Source of the DNA: Halosegnis marinus
GTDB taxonomy: Archaea; Halobacteriota; Halobacteria; Halobacteriales; Haloarculaceae
Direction of reading: 5' to 3'
NCBI RefSeq assembly: GCF_029338355.1
Contig: NZ_CP119802.1
Span: forward strand, 1,054,001-1,118,000
DNA length: 64,000 bases
The position numbers were made by a program, and so were the translations under genes. The first letter of the stretch is position 1; each line of letters begins with the position of its first letter. The notes beneath the pieces are model-generated. The model ran no database searches. It saw only the letters and a list, made by a program, of their open reading frames with translations, and was not told the origin of the DNA. Of this stretch, positions 13,595-21,537 are shown piece by piece.

Positions 13595-14083
13595 CTACAG
13601 CGGCTTCCCGAACGCCACGACCTCGTACTCCCCGACCGTCCGGCGACCCGTCTCCTCGTAGCCGCGCCGCGGGTAGAACGCCATCGCGCGCTCCTGTCGG
13701 GCCGTCGTCTCCAGGACGACGCCCTCGTAGCCGGCCTCCCGCGCGCGCCGCTCCAGCTCCGCGAGGACGCGCGAGCCGTACCCCTCGCCGCGCGCGCCGT
13801 CCGCGACGGCCATCCGGACCACCTCGACGGTGTCGCCGTCGCGCGGCTTGAAACCGCCCATCGCCACCGGGTCGTTCCCGTCCTCGACGACGAGTAGCTC
13901 CCCGCCGGCGCCGTGAAACGCGCGCTCGATGTCCCGGAGGTCCTCGTTGCCGGGCACGTCGTCGGGGTCGGAGCCGGCGGCCCGGATGGCCGAGCGGTGG
14001 AGCGCGACGAGCGCGTCCGAGTCGGCGTCCGTCGCACGCCGGAGGCGCGGCCCGTCCGCGCCCTCTGGGGACTCCCGGCTCAC
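13595..14083 (-). CDS. GNAT-family N-acetyltransferase
   Basis: GCN5-related acetyltransferase of 162 residues. Motif A, with the acetyl-CoA pyrophosphate loop, is VVRMAVADGARGEGYGSRVL; ETTARQERAMAFYPRRGYEETGRR is motif B. The substrate is unknown. The GTG start at 14083 overlaps the stop of the upstream nicotinamidase gene (GTGA), so the two are probably co-translated from the promoter at 14690-14697. A longer open frame exists upstream but is the shadow of the nicotinamidase. Confidence 0.85.
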   Translation of the reverse strand: MSRESPEGADGPRLRRATDADSDALVALHRSAIRAAGSDPDDVPGNEDLRDIERAFHGAGGELLVVEDGNDPVAMGGFKPRDGDTVEVVRMAVADGARGEGYGSRVLAELERRAREAGYEGVVLETTARQERAMAFYPRRGYEETGRRTVGEYEVVAFGKPL

Positions 14084-14667
14084 GCGAAGGTCACGTCCGC
14101 GAGCGTCGCGCGCTCGCCGAACAGCCACTCGGCGTGGTCCAGCGCGTACGCCTTGTGGTCGTCCTCGATGGCGCCGACCGCGTCCTCGACGAGCACCGGT
14201 CGGTAGTCGCGCAGGCCGGCGCTCCCGGCGGTGTGGAGCACGCAGACGTTGGCGAGCGTGCCACAGAACAGGAGGTCCGTCACGCCGCGCGCGGAGAGCC
14301 AGCCGTCCAGTTGCGTCTCGTGGAAGGCGTCGTACGTGTGCTTCTCCACCACGAGGTCCGCGCGCTCCGCGGGGAGGTCGCCGTGGAGTTCGGCGTCCCA
14401 CGACCCTTCGACGACGTGTTCGCCCCATCGCTCGAACTCGTCGTAGTAGCGGTTGCCGTCGAACTGTCCGGGCGGGTGGACGTCGCGGGTGAACACGACG
14501 CGCGCGCCGGCATCCGCGGCGCGGGCGACGAGGTCGGCACACGGGGCGAGGGCGGCCTCGCTGCCGGGCGCGTACAGCGACCCGTCGGGGTGACAGAAGC
14601 CGTTCTGCATGTCCACGACGACGACGGCCGTCGATTCGGAGTCGAACGCGAACTCGGTGTCGGCCAT
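14080..14667 (-). CDS. pncA: Nicotinamidase / isochorismatase-family hydrolase
   Basis: Cysteine hydrolase of 195 residues. The triad is visible as Asp19 (VVVVDMQNGF), Lys109 (VVEKHTYDAF) and Cys142 (GTLANVCVLHTA). Asp62, His64 (RDVHPPG) and His84 sit where nicotinamidases bind their metal. It probably deamidates nicotinamide to nicotinate. That assignment is strengthened by a nicotinate phosphoribosyltransferase 4.2 kb away, beyond three lipoprotein genes. ATG 14667 fits a TATA box at 14690-14697 on the minus strand; the longer frame upstream crosses the promoter. A non-nicotinamide isochorismatase-like hydrolase remains possible. Confidence 0.82.
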   Translation of the reverse strand: MADTEFAFDSESTAVVVVDMQNGFCHPDGSLYAPGSEAALAPCADLVARAADAGARVVFTRDVHPPGQFDGNRYYDEFERWGEHVVEGSWDAELHGDLPAERADLVVEKHTYDAFHETQLDGWLSARGVTDLLFCGTLANVCVLHTAGSAGLRDYRPVLVEDAVGAIEDDHKAYALDHAEWLFGERATLADVTFA

Positions 14668-14689
14668 ACCGGCGGGTGGGCCGCGCCGG

Positions 14690-14733
14690 GCAAAAGCCGC
14701 CCGCCGACGCGGAGCGACACGGGCGGTTTTTGC
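14690..14733. promoter_or_regulatory. Near-symmetric divergent promoter of pncA and the zincin lipoprotein genes
   Basis: An imperfect inverted repeat (13 of 14 matches), GCAAAAGCCGCCCG at 14690-14703 and CGGGCGGTTTTTGC at 14720-14733, is separated by 16 nt. Its outer ends are the T-rich TATA boxes of the two genes. Each is centred about 27-28 nt before its own ATG (14667 minus, 14757 plus). Both genes therefore appear to use mirrored, leaderless promoters. Confidence 0.6.
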
Positions 14734-14756
14734 GTGTTGCGTTCTAGCAGGGTAGT

Positions 14757-16235
14757 ATGCGACCACGACAGGCCGTGCTGCTCGCCCTCCTCGTCGTGTT
14801 GGCGGGGTGTAGCGCCGGGTTCACCGGCACCCCGACCGCGACGGAGACGGCGACGCCCTCCGCGACGCCGACCGACACGGACACCGCGACGCCGACCGCC
14901 ACCGAGGCGGCCGCCGCCCCGCCGGACCCCGAGACCGACGTGCTCGGGTGGGAGAACGGCCGGTGGGCCAACGAGAGCCTCACGCTCGACCGCTCCGACG
15001 GGCTGAACGAGACGGAGATAGAGGCCGTCGTCGCCCGCGCGATGGCCCGCGTCGAGACCGTGCGCGAACTGGAGTTCGAAGAGGACGTGCCCGTGAACCT
15101 CGTCTCGCGCGAGGAGTTCCGCAACAGCTCCGCCGCGGGCGGGAGCGCGGACTACTCGGACGCGTTCCGCGCGTTCGACAACGCGAAGTTCGAGGCGCTG
15201 TTCCTCGTCGGCGAGGACCGCGACTCGCTGGCCGTCCAGAGTTCGAACCGCGGCTCGTCGGTGGCGGGCTACTTCTCGCCGTCGCGCGACGAGATCGTCG
15301 TCATCTACCCCGGCGACACCCCGGACCTGCCGGGCGAGGGGACGCTGTCGCACGAGCTCACCCACGCGATACAGGACCAGTACTTCGACCTCACGTCGAT
15401 TCGGGCCTCGACCCGCGAGGAGAGCAACGCCCAGAACGGCCTCATCGAGGGCGAGGCGAACCTCGTGCAGGACCGCTACATGGCGAACTGCGGCGAGGGG
15501 TGGGAGTGTCTCGCCCCGCCCCAGTCCGGCGGCGGCGGGGGCGGCGGCGACCTCCACCTCGGCATCTACATCATGAACTTCTTCCCGTACGCCGCGGGCC
15601 CCGGCTTCGTCGCGTACTACCAGGAGCGCGGCGGCTGGGACCGCATCGACGAGATGTACGACCGGCTCCCCGAGTCCACCGAGCAGGTGATGGAGCCGCC
15701 GCTGTACGCCGTGAACCGCGACAGCCCGACCGAGGTGCAGTTGACCGACACCCAGACGAACGGCTGGGAGCGGGTCCGGCCCCCCGAGCGTGACGACTAC
15801 GCCGTCCTCGGCCAGTCCGCGATGACCGCGATGTTCGCCTACACCCTGTACGACGACTACCGGCAGGGCGGCGTCATCGAGCCGAACGAGTTCCTCAACC
15901 TCGAGGACGGCCAGGTGAACCAGAGCGACCCGTTCGAGTACGACATCGCCTACACCGACGGCTGGGACGGCGACCGGATGCACGTCTACCGGAAGGACGG
16001 CGAGGGGGCCTACGTGTGGCGCACCGTCTGGGACTCCCCGGCCGAGGCCGAGGAGTTCGCGAGCGGCTACCGACAGCTGCTCTCGCACTGGGGCGCGAGC
16101 GAGCGCGCCGACGGGGTCTACGTCGCCGAGAGCGGCCCCTACGCCGACGCCTTCCGCCTCGTCGTGGAGGGCGACACCGTCACCATCGTGAACGCGCCGA
16201 CGACCGACGACCTCGACGACGTGTACAGCGGCTGA
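14757..16235 (+). CDS. Hvo_1808-type surface lipoprotein with HExxH zincin motif (paralogue 1)
   Basis: Exported protein of 492 residues: hydrophobic signal with lipobox LLVVLAGCS (Cys18 the lipidation site). A Thr/Ala/Pro-rich linker with TPTATE-type repeats (about 25-55) follows, then a globular domain. GTLSHELTHAIQDQYFD gives His199-Glu200-x2-His203, and the downstream LIEGEANLVQ offers Glu231 as a third ligand, the layout of a gluzincin metalloprotease. A Gly-rich loop follows WECLAPPQ. Family annotation is only surface protein; protease activity is inferred. It is the first of three overlapping paralogues (TGATG at 16233-16237). Confidence 0.85.
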   Translation: MRPRQAVLLALLVVLAGCSAGFTGTPTATETATPSATPTDTDTATPTATEAAAAPPDPETDVLGWENGRWANESLTLDRSDGLNETEIEAVVARAMARVETVRELEFEEDVPVNLVSREEFRNSSAAGGSADYSDAFRAFDNAKFEALFLVGEDRDSLAVQSSNRGSSVAGYFSPSRDEIVVIYPGDTPDLPGEGTLSHELTHAIQDQYFDLTSIRASTREESNAQNGLIEGEANLVQDRYMANCGEGWECLAPPQSGGGGGGGDLHLGIYIMNFFPYAAGPGFVAYYQERGGWDRIDEMYDRLPESTEQVMEPPLYAVNRDSPTEVQLTDTQTNGWERVRPPERDDYAVLGQSAMTAMFAYTLYDDYRQGGVIEPNEFLNLEDGQVNQSDPFEYDIAYTDGWDGDRMHVYRKDGEGAYVWRTVWDSPAEAEEFASGYRQLLSHWGASERADGVYVAESGPYADAFRLVVEGDTVTIVNAPTTDDLDDVYSG

Positions 16236-17578
16236 TGGCCCCCGACGGCGCGACCGGCGGCCCCGCGAGGTCCCGCGGCCGACGACTCGCGCCGTTCGTT
16301 CTTTTGGTCTGTCTCCTGCTCGCCGGCTGTAGCGTCGGCTACACCGGCACCCCGAGCCCGTCGCCCGACCCCGACCGCATCGGCTACGAGGACGGCTACG
16401 CCGCGAACGCGACGCTGTCGGTCACCCCCGAGGACGGGCTGAACGACACCGAACTCGCCGCCGTCGTCGCCCGCACGACCGCGCGCGTCGAACGCATCCG
16501 CGGCGCGGAGTTCGACGGGAACCTCACCGTCGAGACCCTGACGCGCGAGGAGTACCGCGCCCGGAACCTCTCGTTCACGCCCCGCGAGGACCGCGCCGCC
16601 GACGCGCGCTGGGAGGCGGCGCTGCTCGTCGGGGAGGACGCCGCGAGCGAAGCGGTCGTCTCGGACCTGTTCGGGGGCGCGGTCGCCGGCTACTACCTGC
16701 CGGGCGAGAACCGCCTCGTCCTCGTCGGCGAGGTGAACACCCGGACGCTCGCCCACGAACTCGTCCACGCCCTGCAGGACGCCCGCGGGTGGGACGTGTC
16801 CCGGCGCGCGACCCTCGACGGCCGCCTCGCCGGGCGCGGCCTCACGGAGGGGGAGGCCGTCGCCGTCCAGCGGGCCTACGCCGCGCGCTGTGGCTCGGAG
16901 TGGGACTGCCTCCCGCTCCCGCCGCGCGGGGACCTCGACGTGGACGCGGTCGTCGCCCACCCCGGCGTCTACCTCGTCTTCCGCGCGCCGTACGTCCTCG
17001 GCCCGGAGTTCGTCGGTGCGCTCCGCGAGCGCGGCGGCTGGGACGCCGTGAACGACGCCTACGCCGACCCGCCGACCGCGACCCGCGAACTGCTCGACCC
17101 GGCGGCGTACCCGGCCGCCTCTCCCGAAGTCGCGATAGCCGACCGCTCGACGCGCACGTGGGAGCGGTACGGGGGCGCGGACTCGCTCGGGCGCGCGACC
17201 GTCCACGCGACGTTCTGGCGGCACAACCTCGTCGCGCGCGGCGACGACGCCGTCGCCACCGACTACCGGGACCGCTACACCGACGGGCTGGTCGCCGACC
17301 GCTTCCGGGCCTATCGGAACGGCGACGCCGACGGCTACGTGTGGCGGCTCCGCTTCGCGAACGCGAGCGAGGCCGCCGAGTTCGCCGCGGGGTACGAGCG
17401 CCTGCTCCGCCTGCGGCTGAACGCCCGCGCGCCGACGGGTGACGTGTTCGTCGTCGAGTCCGGGCCGTTCGCCGACGCCTTCCGCGTCACCCGCGACGGC
17501 GACGCGGTGACGATAGTGAACGCGCCCGCGCTCGGCGACCTCTCGGCGGTCCACGCCCGCGAGGGGGTGGCCGCGTGA
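16235..17578 (+). CDS. Hvo_1808-type surface lipoprotein with HExxH motif (paralogue 2)
   Basis: Protein of 447 residues with an N-terminal twin-Arg-like stretch (RSRGRRLAP), a hydrophobic core and lipobox CLLLAGCS. The globular domain aligns with the neighbours throughout: EDGLNDTELAAVVARTTARV, TLAHELVHALQDARG (His174, Glu175, His178), LTEGEAVAVQRAY, and an ending in AVTIVNAPALGDL. The Thr-rich linker is much shorter than in paralogue 1. ATG at 16235 overlaps the previous stop (TGATG), and its own stop overlaps the next GTG. Likely cell-surface anchored and co-expressed with both neighbours. Confidence 0.83.
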   Translation: MAPDGATGGPARSRGRRLAPFVLLVCLLLAGCSVGYTGTPSPSPDPDRIGYEDGYAANATLSVTPEDGLNDTELAAVVARTTARVERIRGAEFDGNLTVETLTREEYRARNLSFTPREDRAADARWEAALLVGEDAASEAVVSDLFGGAVAGYYLPGENRLVLVGEVNTRTLAHELVHALQDARGWDVSRRATLDGRLAGRGLTEGEAVAVQRAYAARCGSEWDCLPLPPRGDLDVDAVVAHPGVYLVFRAPYVLGPEFVGALRERGGWDAVNDAYADPPTATRELLDPAAYPAASPEVAIADRSTRTWERYGGADSLGRATVHATFWRHNLVARGDDAVATDYRDRYTDGLVADRFRAYRNGDADGYVWRLRFANASEAAEFAAGYERLLRLRLNARAPTGDVFVVESGPFADAFRVTRDGDAVTIVNAPALGDLSAVHAREGVAA

Positions 17579-18867
17579 GCCGCGCGCTCCCCGCCCTCGT
17601 CTGCCTCCTGCTCGTCGTGACCGCCGGCTGTGCCGGCCTGCTCGGGGCCGGGGGCGCGCCCGACGACGACCGGGTAGGGTACGAGAACGGCTACTGGTAC
17701 GACTCCGAACTGAACGTCACGACGGCGGACGGGCTGAACGGGTCGGAGCGGGAGGCCGTCGTCGCCCGGACGATGGCCCGCGTCGAGGTGATACGCGACG
17801 TGGAGTTCACGGAACGCGTCCCGGTGCGTGTCGTCACCCGCGAGCAGTACCGCGCGAACCGGAGCGACGCGACCCTCGAACCGGCCGAGGCCGCGTGGCG
17901 CGAGCAGGTGTGGGAGGCCCCGCTGCTCGTCGGGGAGGACCGCACCGTCGACGAGGCGTTCGACGCCGTCTACGGCTCGTCGGTCGCGGGCTACTACTCG
18001 CCGTCGCGCGACGAGATAGTCCTCGTCTCCGACACCGAGACGCCGACGGTAGACACCCGGACGCTGGCGCACGAACTCGTCCACGCGATACAGGACCGAC
18101 AGCTCTCCTTCGGCGGCGGGGCGACCCGCGACGCCGGCCTCGCCGTGCGGGGGCTCACGGAGGGCGACGCGAACCTCGTGGAGGCGCTGTACGATGAGCG
18201 GTGTGCGTCGGAGTGGGACTGTCTGGCCCCGCCCGAGAGCGGCGGGGGCGGCGCCGCGGACTTCGACTTCGGCGTCTTCCTCGCCGTGTACGCGCCCTAC
18301 GCCGAGGGGCCGGCGTTCGTCGAGTCCCTGCGCGAGCGCGGCGGCTGGGACGCCGTGAACGACGCCTACGACCGCTTCCCCGAATCGACGGAGCAGGTGA
18401 TTCACCCCGAGCGCTACCCGGACGACGCGCCCGTCGAGGTCCGGGTGCGGGACCGCTCCGACGGCGAGTGGGACCGCTTCGACCGCGAGCGCGTCGGGGA
18501 CACCCTCGGCGAGGCCACCATCTACGCGATGCTGTGGTCCGGCGGCGCGACGGACGGCGCGGACCCGTACGACTACGCCGACCCCGCCTCGGCCGGATGG
18601 GCCGGCGACACCGTCGTCCCCTACACCGACGGCGGGGCGGGCGGCTACGTCTGGCGCGTCGCCTTCGACACGGAGGCCGACGCCCGCGAGTTCGCGGACG
18701 CCTACCGGAGCGTTCTGCGCGGCTACGGGGCCGAGCGCGTCGCGGCGGGGACGTACCGCATCGACTCGGGCGGGTTCGCCGACGCGTTCCGCGTGGTCCA
18801 CGATGGCGACACCGTGACGATAGTCAACGGCCCGACGGTCGCCGACCTCGACGGGATACACGGGTAG
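17575..18867 (+). CDS. Hvo_1808-type surface lipoprotein with HExxH motif (paralogue 3)
   Basis: Protein of 430 residues, GTG start overlapping the previous stop (GTGA). Signal LVCLLLVVTAGCAG carries the lipobox Cys. The domain repeats the family pattern: ADGLNGSEREAVVARTMARV, SSVAGYYSPSRDEIVLV, TLAHELVHAIQDRQ (His166, Glu167, His170), LTEGDANLVEALYD and DTVTIVNGPTVADL at the end. There is almost no linker after the lipobox. It is the last gene of the three-gene lipoprotein unit. pncB follows 30 nt later with its own T-rich TATA box. Confidence 0.83.
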   Translation: MSRALPALVCLLLVVTAGCAGLLGAGGAPDDDRVGYENGYWYDSELNVTTADGLNGSEREAVVARTMARVEVIRDVEFTERVPVRVVTREQYRANRSDATLEPAEAAWREQVWEAPLLVGEDRTVDEAFDAVYGSSVAGYYSPSRDEIVLVSDTETPTVDTRTLAHELVHAIQDRQLSFGGGATRDAGLAVRGLTEGDANLVEALYDERCASEWDCLAPPESGGGGAADFDFGVFLAVYAPYAEGPAFVESLRERGGWDAVNDAYDRFPESTEQVIHPERYPDDAPVEVRVRDRSDGEWDRFDRERVGDTLGEATIYAMLWSGGATDGADPYDYADPASAGWAGDTVVPYTDGGAGGYVWRVAFDTEADAREFADAYRSVLRGYGAERVAAGTYRIDSGGFADAFRVVHDGDTVTIVNGPTVADLDGIHG

Positions 18868-18897: not shown

Positions 18898-20043
18898 ATG
18901 TTCGACATCGTCTCGCCCGAGGCCATCCGCGACGGTCGGGCGACGGACGCCTACTTCGAGCGGACCCGCGACGCGCTGGAGGGCGCGGGCCGCGACCCCC
19001 ACGTCGTCTGCGAGGTGACGGCCGACCAGTTCCCCGACGGCTCCTTCGAGACGTTCGCGGGCGTGAAGGACGCCGCCCACCTCTTCGAGGGCCGGGACGT
19101 GACCGTCCACGCGCTCGGCGCGGGACAGCTGTTCGACGGCGGCCCCGTCATGCGTATCGAGGGGTCGTATCTGGCGTTCGCGGAGCTCGAAACGTCGCTT
19201 CTGGGCTTTCTCTCCTCGGCGAGCGGCTGGGCGACCGGCGCGCGCCGGGTCGTCTCCGCGGCCGGCGACGACGTGTCCGTCCTCTCCTTCGGCGCGCGCC
19301 ACGTCCACCCCTCGACGGCCGCGGCGCTCGAACGCGCGGCGCTCGTCGGCGGCGTGGACGGCTTCTCGCACGTCGCCGCGGGCGAGGTGCTCGGCCGGGA
19401 GCCGAGCGGCACGATGCCACACGCGCTCGTCATCTGCTTCGGGCGCGGCGAGCAGGAGGCCGCGTGGCGCGCGTTCGACGACCACAGCCCCGAAGACGTG
19501 CCCCGTATCGCGCTCACGGACACCTACTCCGACGAGGTGGACGAGGCGCTCCGGGCGGCCGCGGCCGTCGAGGACCTCCACTCCGTGCGCCTCGACACGA
19601 CCGGCTCGCGGCGGGGCGACTTCCGCCACATCGTCCGCGAGGTGCGGTGGGCGCTGGACGACGCCGGCCACGAGGACGTGGGCGTGTTCGTCTCGGGCGG
19701 CATCGGGGCCGACGACGTGCGCGAACTCCGCGACGACGTGGAGGGGTTCGGCGTCGGCTCGGCCATCTCGAACGCGGAGCCGGTGGACTTCGCGCTCGAC
19801 ATCGTGGAGCGCGACGGCGAGAGCGCCGCCAAGCGCGGGAAGCTCTCGGGCGCGAAGCAGGTGTACCGCTCGGGCGAGGACCACGTCGTCCGCCCGGCCG
19901 ACGAGCCCGGCCCGACGGACGGCCGGCCCCTCCTCCGCCCGCTCGTGGAGGACGGCGAGATCGTGCGCGACTTCTCCGTCGACGAGGCGGCGAAGCGGTG
20001 TGCCTCGGACGCCGAGCGCGTGGGGTTCGGGGACGAGGAGTAG
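18898..20043 (+). CDS. pncB: Nicotinate phosphoribosyltransferase
   Basis: Type II phosphoribosyltransferase of 381 residues joining nicotinate and PRPP to give nicotinate mononucleotide for NAD salvage. Family segments: FGARHVHPSTAAALERAALVG, LGREPSGTMPHALVI, the ALTDTYSDEVDEAL acidic loop, VRLDTTGSRRGDF, and the phosphate-binding VFVSGGIGADDVREL. The short archaeal form is typical. It follows the zincin lipoproteins by 30 nt with CTTTTTCG 27 nt before its ATG. With the nicotinamidase at 14080-14667 it completes a two-step nicotinamide salvage route. Confidence 0.92.
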   Translation: MFDIVSPEAIRDGRATDAYFERTRDALEGAGRDPHVVCEVTADQFPDGSFETFAGVKDAAHLFEGRDVTVHALGAGQLFDGGPVMRIEGSYLAFAELETSLLGFLSSASGWATGARRVVSAAGDDVSVLSFGARHVHPSTAAALERAALVGGVDGFSHVAAGEVLGREPSGTMPHALVICFGRGEQEAAWRAFDDHSPEDVPRIALTDTYSDEVDEALRAAAAVEDLHSVRLDTTGSRRGDFRHIVREVRWALDDAGHEDVGVFVSGGIGADDVRELRDDVEGFGVGSAISNAEPVDFALDIVERDGESAAKRGKLSGAKQVYRSGEDHVVRPADEPGPTDGRPLLRPLVEDGEIVRDFSVDEAAKRCASDAERVGFGDEE

Positions 20044-20070: not shown

Positions 20071-20452
20071 CGGCTGAGGGGAGTAAGCCCCCTTCTGTTC
20101 GGCCCGGCATTCGGCTGAGCGCCCGCCGCGGCGTCCGGGCTACCAATCGCGGCGGGCTTGCACCGGCGGGGATTCGCCGTTCCATCGGTCCCCACTCATC
20201 GACGCTCGGCGGGTTAGCTTCCTTCCCTCGCGGGTCGGGTCGCACGCTCCCGGGTGACCCCGGTCGCGCCGGGAGGTGACGGTGTCACCTCTCGCGCCTC
20301 ATCGCTCCGAGTGGGACGTGTCGTTGCTGTTCCATAGCCAGCGGTCTCCCGCTCCGGACTTGCGTCCGGTCGCCCGCCCGGACGGTGGGGGGACTTTCCT
20401 CGCCGTCGGGGTCCTACTCCCGACGAGGCGGTGGCCGGGCTCCCTCTGCCGA
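20071..20452 (-). ncRNA. rnpB: RNase P RNA
   Basis: Catalytic RNA that trims 5' leaders from pre-tRNAs. On the minus strand the universally conserved CR-I, GAGGAAAGTCCCCCCA (20386-20401), and CR-V, ACAGAAGGGGGCTTA (20084-20098), are both present and can pair to form P4. Helix P1 closes the molecule: GGCAGAGGGAG at the 5' end (about 20450) pairs with CTCCCCTCAGCC (20072-20083), with one mismatch and one bulge. The length of about 380 nt suits archaeal type A RNA. Ends are set from P1 and may be off by a few bases. A likely TATA box, GCTTAGGG, lies about 26 nt upstream of the 5' end. Confidence 0.93.
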
Positions 20453-20472
20453 CCGGCCCTTCGCCGTCGGGA

Positions 20473-20480
20473 ACCCTAAG
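20473..20480. promoter_or_regulatory. Shared A/T core between rnpB and the metzincin gene
   Basis: CCCTAAGC is the only A/T-rich patch in the 78 nt between the divergent rnpB and the plus-strand lipoprotein gene. It lies about 26 nt before the rnpB 5' end on the minus strand. On the plus strand it could set a start near 20503, giving a short leader to GTG 20530. Confidence 0.4.
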
Positions 20481-20529
20481 CCCGTCGGACGGCCGCAAGC
20501 GGTATGCGGCCGCCGGGAGAACTTCGGAC

Positions 20530-21537
20530 GTGTACCGGGCCGCGCTCCTCTGCGTCCTCCTCCTGCTCGCCGGCTGTACGACCGGGGTGTCGCCGGGCGG
20601 AACCGCGACGCCGACCGCGACGGCCGCGTGGGACGGCGACCCGGACAACCACTTCCGCGAGCGGACGCTGACGGTCGCCGTCGTGGACGAGGCGGGGACG
20701 GGCCGCGACTACGCGCCGCTGGTCCGCGAGGCGCTCGACTACTGGGGGGCGAACGCCGAGCGGTACGCCGGCTTCCCCCTCGACTACGAACTCGTCGCGA
20801 ACGACTCCGACCCCGACGTCCGGGTCCGGTTCGTGTCGAACATCGCGGAGTGCGGCTCCGAGACGAGCGACTACACCGCCGGCTGTGCCCGCTTTCTCGA
20901 CTCGCCCGACGACGTGACCCGCCCGATACGGGTGCGCGTCGAGACGGGCTACGCCGACGCCTCGACCGTCTCGGTGGTGAAACACGAGTTGGGCCACACG
21001 CTCGGCCTGCGCCACGGCGACGAGCCGACCGACGTGATGGCCGCCCGGTCGAACCTCACCACCCTGCCGCAACCGAACGCGACGGAGCGGGCCCTGCCGT
21101 GGGACTCGCCGAACCTCACCTACTACGTCGACTACGCGACGGTGCCCGAGTCCGAGCGCGCGGAGACGCGCCGGCAGATGCGCGAGACGTTCGGCTACTT
21201 CGCCGACGGCGCCGACGGCACCGTCCCCGACAACGTGACGTTCGCGCGGACGACGAACCGCTCGGCCGCGGACGTGGTCGTGCGCTTCGCCGATGCCGAC
21301 CCCTGTACCGAGGGCTCGGGGTCGTGTGGCGGCCTGCGCGGGACCGACCCGGACCGCGACGGCGCGCTGGAGACGTACACGCGGCTGAACGTCACGGTCG
21401 TCGACATCCCGCCGGACGCGCGCGGCTGGCACGTCGGCTACTGGACGGCGCTCGGCTTCGGCCTCCGGGGCGAGGAACTGCCCGCGCCGCTGCGCTCCGA
21501 GGACCCGGACGTGCGCCGGAACGACTGGTGGGCCTAG
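20530..21537 (+). CDS. Metzincin-like zinc metalloprotease lipoprotein
   Basis: Exported protein of 335 residues. GTG 20530 begins VYRAALLCVLLLLAGCTTG, a signal with lipobox LAGC; GGGAG lies ten nt upstream. KHELGHTLGLRHGDEPTDVM contains the extended zinc motif HExxHxxGxxH (His152, Glu153, His156, His162), with Met172 (TDVM) as a possible Met-turn, so it belongs to the metzincins and is closest to matrixin/archaeal M10-like proteins. Expected on the outer surface, degrading unknown proteins. An in-window ATG at 20504 is out of frame. Its stop shares the CTAG with the minus-strand small gene that follows. Confidence 0.82.
   Translation: MYRAALLCVLLLLAGCTTGVSPGGTATPTATAAWDGDPDNHFRERTLTVAVVDEAGTGRDYAPLVREALDYWGANAERYAGFPLDYELVANDSDPDVRVRFVSNIAECGSETSDYTAGCARFLDSPDDVTRPIRVRVETGYADASTVSVVKHELGHTLGLRHGDEPTDVMAARSNLTTLPQPNATERALPWDSPNLTYYVDYATVPESERAETRRQMRETFGYFADGADGTVPDNVTFARTTNRSAADVVVRFADADPCTEGSGSCGGLRGTDPDRDGALETYTRLNVTVVDIPPDARGWHVGYWTALGFGLRGEELPAPLRSEDPDVRRNDWWA

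Follow-up and report, generated by a model that had tools for sequence, protein, structure and literature searches.

Tandem Hvo_1808-type surface proteins of Halosegnis marinus: predicted gluzincins from a family in which a presumed metal ligand has repeatedly changed between His and Gln

The window, a stretch of 64,000 nucleotides from the Halosegnis marinus genome (2.8 Mb, two contigs; contig NZ_CP119802.1, positions 1,054,001 to 1,118,000), contains three overlapping genes, A, B and C, whose products all carry an HExxH motif and belong to a family named only for its surface location. The locus raises the question of whether these proteins are metalloproteases, and whether the residues presumed to bind the metal are kept throughout the family. 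The three window proteins and a fourth copy elsewhere in the genome score above the curated 200-bit cut-off of NF038145, the profile of the Hvo_1808 family; protein B shares 42% identity with A, and protein C 47%. The ATG of gene B lies within a TGATG that overlaps the stop codon of gene A, and the GTG of gene C within a GTGA that overlaps the stop codon of gene B. The motif pairs HELTHAIQD/EGEA (A), HELVHALQD/EGEA (B) and HELVHAIQD/EGDA (C) place all three copies in the His type, defined by HExxH and a downstream Glu. Thus the original prediction, made from the DNA letters, of three Hvo_1808-type paralogues with TGATG and GTGA overlaps, sharing HEL-x-HA-(I/L)-QD and EG(E/D)A, was borne out, and the name of NF038145 indeed says surface protein, with no metallopeptidase assignment. 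A lipobox, also expected in all three, was found in A and B, which have LAGC at this position, whereas the non-canonical TAGC of C is not matched by the pattern that we used ([LVIA][ASTGVL][GAS]C near the N-terminus). The predicted placing at the cell surface agrees with the relative Hvo_1808, which, in the part of the source available, is treated as a lipobox protein and is cell-associated and processed (PMC2945643). A promoter and terminator scan downstream of gene C found neither.

Table 1 Positions in the window of genes A, B and C, their candidate active-site segments and the flanking genes.
Feature	Position	Strand	Remarks
Isochorismatase-family hydrolase, divergent from gene A	14080..14766	-	PF00857 162.5 bits
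Gene A (P0001, 492 aa)	14757..16235	+	NF038145 541.6 bits; tree: upstream-copy group
Gene A, HELTH (residues 199-203)	15351..15365	+	
Gene A, Glu231 of EGEA, candidate third ligand (His203 +28 residues)	15447..15449	+	
Gene B (P0002, 447 aa)	16235..17578	+	NF038145 385.2 bits; tree: downstream-copy group, long branch
Gene B, HELVH	16754..16768	+	
Gene B, Glu of EGEA, candidate third ligand	16847..16849	+	
Gene C (P0003, 430 aa, GTG start)	17575..18867	+	NF038145 505.2 bits; tree: downstream-copy group
Gene C, HELVH (residues 138-142 of the model, on helix 133-149)	18070..18084	+	
Gene C, Glu of EGDA, candidate third ligand (residue 168 of the model, on helix 157-184)	18160..18162	+	
Nicotinate phosphoribosyltransferase gene	18898..20043	+	NF006415 495.9 bits, cut-off 243

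The family to which genes A, B and C belong, as ordinary members, is widespread and has no assigned function. NF038145 is present in 390 of the 391 sampled genomes of the class, and 39 of 63 related loci have at least two family members among the reading frames of the stretch retrieved (34 hold two and 5 hold three; at two of the latter, L085 and L087, one frame lacks the motif and resembles a piece of a broken copy). Within the genus, the same genomic slot is occupied by one copy in three genomes (G229, G315 and G343), by A- and B-like copies in two (G131 and G553) and by A, B and C in the window. The A-like copy of G131 (L189 5295-7351) and the B-like copy of G553 (L190 5218-6569) are each split over two reading frames, by sequencing error or decay. 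A distant haloarchaeal paralogue with HEYVH and EGAA (G000:C1:2307892-2308629, L154) scores 60.7 bits with NF038145, below the cut-off. Plasmid copies are rare, with matches in 4 of 72,556 plasmid records. A hypothetical protein on plasmid NZ_CP128401.1 of the bacterium Candidatus Chlorohelix allophototropha matches gene C over 68% of its length (E 2e-13), so the superfamily may reach bacteria.

The genes that flank the array recur at the related loci. At 48 of 63, the isochorismatase-family hydrolase lies upstream of the first copy and points away from it; the nicotinate phosphoribosyltransferase follows downstream at 44, at 27 of which it is no more than 300 bp from the last copy; and both frame the array at 41. 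These counts include loci cut by contig ends. The hydrolase is possibly a nicotinamidase, a guess from the neighbouring gene, and an NCBIfam search with it returned no equivalog at its cut-off. A tie of the family to NAD salvage through these neighbours was considered, with synteny as the sole support. Positions 20431-21537 of the window (+ strand) encode a further, matrixin-like protein, which has HELGHTLGLRHG and an N-terminus resembling a lipobox (Pfam Peptidase_M10 43.6 bits, cut-off 24), and similar genes occur at 9 of the 63 related loci and at L185, L187, L189 and L190.

The fold was assessed with an AlphaFold2 model of gene C residues 29-430 computed from a 93-row alignment (pLDDT 95.3, pTM 0.93); a model from a three-row alignment reached a pLDDT of 37.5 and was discarded. 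In the model, HELVH and the downstream Glu lie on successive helices (Table 1). A Foldseek search of the PDB returned no chain at E<=0.001, the first row being the PknH extracellular domain at E 0.014. The Foldseek candidates were given a second look with VIA-align, where a Z score below 8 was flagged as possibly reflecting just a common arrangement. Among the 50 rows listed, the top match to the N-terminal domain is 3cmn, with a Z score of 9.5 and 187 residues aligned at 4.5 Å, followed by IRAP (7.2), ERAP1 (7.0), ACE2 (7.0), lugdulysin M30 (6.7), the Deinococcus radiodurans M1 enzyme (6.6), collagenase H (6.4) and aureolysin (6.2), so that every listed row except 3cmn lies below 8. The C-terminal residues 259-402 align with PknH, TM1622 and TiME at Z scores of 6.5-6.7. 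Sequence searches of the PDB gave nothing significant: the best match of the family profile is again 3cmn (E 0.75), and gene A alone produced just a linker-region match (E 0.077). The model and the moderate Z scores support, but do not prove, the predicted gluzincin fold of the N-terminal domain of gene C. Assignment to the metzincins was rejected, as HELTHAIQDQY, HELVHALQDAR and HELVHAIQDRQ all depart from HExxHxxGxxH/D.

Taken together, motif and model make a zinc peptidase the best reading of the three window proteins, which might, as first suggested, differ in specificity. The tandem genes A, B and C, which are likely co-translated, probably encode copies of a haloarchaeal gluzincin that is secreted and anchored to the membrane. 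The signal peptide and the lipobox, in A and B at least, would hold the protein outside the membrane. Zinc would be bound by the two His residues of HExxH, on the active-site helix, together with the Glu of the following helix, while the Glu within HExxH would activate a water molecule. Tyr278, which is invariant, is a candidate for the oxyanion or proton-donor role. The C-terminal domain, with its PknH/TiME/TM1622-like arrangement, may position the substrate or partners. Against this reading stand the Z scores below 8 and the Foldseek result given above, the non-canonical lipobox position of gene C, and the lipobox Cys mutant of Hvo_1808, which according to the accessible portion of the source was still processed and cell-associated (PMC2945643). 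A gluzincin assignment would nonetheless make the function of this nearly ubiquitous family testable.

The candidate ligands were then followed through 159 distinct reading frames, numbered as in gene A and with L001, L002, L004, L006 and identical rows left out. No variation is seen at Glu200 and His203 in 156 rows or at Gln206, Glu231 and Gly232 in 157, and Tyr278 is present in all 153 rows of the tree described below; the spacing from His203 to Glu231 is 27-28 residues in 129 of those 153. The presumed zinc ligands, noted at the outset as conserved in the three window copies, are indeed kept there, but not all of them are kept across the family: the first His, at residue 199, is His in 113 of 156 aligned rows and Gln in the other 43. 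The column is thus not invariant, and His cannot be essential to whatever the Gln copies do. Nor do the ligands vary freely, the case named in advance as fatal to the prediction, since no residue other than His and Gln occurs there. The codons are CAC (113) for His and CAG (38) or CAA (5) for Gln. NF038145 pools both types, and scores Gln copies L183 and L159 at 477.1 and 554.4 bits.

Pattern searches of the 391 genomes gave a consistent picture. A strict QExxH pattern returned 57 matches, spread over 53 genomes and 18 of the 85 genera, against one for the control; these are pattern matches for the Gln form alone rather than confirmed family genes, and are an undercount because the pattern misses the Gln copy of the window genome itself. 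Free variation of the first ligand was rejected, as non-CAN first codons gave only two matches with the rest of the strict motif fixed (one for each pattern, with 8 and 2 for the reversed-pattern controls), both in reading frames to which the family profile gives scores of just 5.9 and 0.1 bits. Twenty distant relatives, chosen by hand as 10 from outside the class (where 15 genomes match) and 10 from haloarchaea, carry HExxH without exception, with an EG further downstream, which makes His the probable ancestral state. The unusual feature of the family is the repeated exchange of His and Gln at a presumed metal ligand.

The direction of these changes was examined on a maximum-likelihood tree, computed quickly from 153 rows (110 with His and 43 with Gln), with the trait column removed and with rows shorter than 290 residues, rows lacking the motif and L005 left out. 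It has neither bootstrap nor outgroup, and its long branches include gene B and the fourth copy of the window genome. Window proteins B and C fall in an all-His group of 56 rows (support 97), and A in a group of 31 His rows and 1 Gln row (support 99); a Gln-rich group holds 38 Gln and 6 His rows (support 96). The best tree needs at least 7 changes between His and Gln, 6 of which are forced by well-supported branches. With the root placed, by choice, inside the all-His group, these resolve into 4-5 gains of Gln and 2-3 reversals, or 12 gains if reversal is forbidden. Lineages have probably moved between the HExxH and QExxH states in both directions.

Two nearby residues tend to accompany Gln: of the 43 Gln rows, 37 have Phe202 and 36 have Gly234, and neither is found in any of the 110 His rows. 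Asn235 is present in all 43 Gln rows and in 56 of the His rows. The columns of Phe202 and Gly234 were picked after viewing the table, and the well-supported branches provide only six independent pairs, of which about four are concordant, none opposite and about two show no difference; a sign test over these six pairs is underpowered and not significant (median p 0.125 for both columns, 0.25 for Asn235). In thermolysin, the residue four positions after the third-ligand Glu contacts the first His and, by analogy, position 235 may belong to the second shell. One natural pair is formed by the sister proteins L187 (His) and L188 (Gln), which occupy the same genomic slot, are 64% identical and differ together at 199, 202 and 234 while both having Asn235; such pairs would show what becomes of a zincin when one His ligand turns into Gln.

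The fourth copy of the window genome (G000:C1:835446-836810; L003, L183), with QExxH and EGDG, is itself of the Gln type. A search with the lipobox pattern gave no match, and the C-terminus is PGF-CTERM-like (21.3 bits, below the cut-off of 24.5), so this protein is perhaps anchored differently. The longer aligned DNA pieces of its site are ~78-86% identical to those of two genus-mates, yet the His/EGDA proteins of the mates are only 39-40% identical to the Gln/EGDG protein of the window genome. This looks like replacement or very fast change.

Gln copies are probably not dead. They are under purifying selection, as are His copies: among 14 hand-picked close pairs, dN/dS is 0.13-0.25 for the seven Gln pairs and 0.11-0.22 for the seven His pairs. 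One possible explanation, which we hold in some doubt, is that Gln copies are pseudoproteases that bind zinc poorly and serve as substrate-binding or regulatory partners of the adjacent His-type copy. Zincins are often killed by the loss of one His, and the arrangement at the 34 two-copy loci (27 HH, 7 QH and no HQ) places every Gln copy upstream of a His-type copy. However, a pseudoenzyme need not keep Glu200, His203, Glu231 and Tyr278, which are invariant in 43 of 43 Gln rows. Nor is a partner always at hand: 9 of 24 one-copy loci hold a lone Gln copy (counted at the locus only), the single family match in the complete genome G002 is of the Gln type, and three-copy loci with the orders HQH and HQQ also exist.

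Gene conversion between tandem paralogues, with no functional meaning to the alternation, is an unlikely source of the pattern as a whole. It fits three His rows of the Gln clade (L008, L012 and L025), whose segment 194-240 has a mean identity of 0.52-0.58 with the His-type upstream group but only 0.47-0.49 with the Gln clade, while all seven other segments compared are nearer to the Gln clade. The other three His rows of that clade (L027, L070 and L083) lack this pattern, and conversion would move a state but leave unexplained why there are two states only and why the neighbours Phe202 and Gly234 differ between them. Less probable still is a structural or metal-binding role at the surface for the family as a whole, lacking peptidase activity and with HExxH serving metal-dependent stability: the family is named just a surface protein and no report of activity was found in the accessible parts of the literature searched, but the Glu of HExxH, which in zincins acts as the catalytic base rather than binding zinc, does not vary in any of 156 rows and is kept in the 20 distant relatives.

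The wider family has the same active site in two states, HExxH...EG(D/E)A and QExxH...EGDGN. The latter most likely retains a metal site whose metal preference or activity is altered, and the recurrent exchange of His for Gln suggests a natural switch of metal or activity. We advance only tentatively the fuller proposal that both states are functional and that the Gln state is an active metalloprotease with another metal preference, for example copper, which is the metal reported for Volvox VMP3 (see below). If it were true, a glutamine-liganded gluzincin would exist and haloarchaeal surface proteolysis would be tuned by the choice of metal.

Several known systems bear on these readings. The gluzincins IRAP, ERAP1, ACE/ACE2, lugdulysin, collagenase H and aureolysin have HExxH and a Glu on the following helix, as predicted here; the gluzincin structural matches belong to what we take to be families M1, M2, M9 and M4. 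The present family differs from them in that it has no significant sequence match in the PDB and that a second, PknH/TiME-like domain follows. The closest match in structure among the 50 listed, 3cmn, is a putative hydrolase of Chloroflexus aurantiacus. The Pfam family DUF6782, a putative metallopeptidase family of which the literature searched makes no mention, is matched by 66 of the 93 alignment members at E<=0.1 (best 6e-6), but genes B and C reach only 16.7 and 15.5 bits against a gathering threshold of 27, and gene A is not listed. The available main text on Hvo_1808 does not contain the word metalloprotease (PMC2945643). In the literature searched, as far as its text was available, QExxH refers to a Volvox enzyme or a diiron halogenase and nothing was found on archaea. 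The Volvox enzyme, VMP3, was reportedly the subject of an original paper by Heitzer and Hallmann in 2002. According to the accessible part of a later source, VMP3 has a natural QExxHxxGxxH site and prefers copper (PMC7717551). As described there, VMP3 resembles the Gln copies in having Gln in place of the first His while keeping the Glu and the second His, and differs from them in its metzincin-type motif, whereas the archaeal proteins have Glu as the predicted third ligand.
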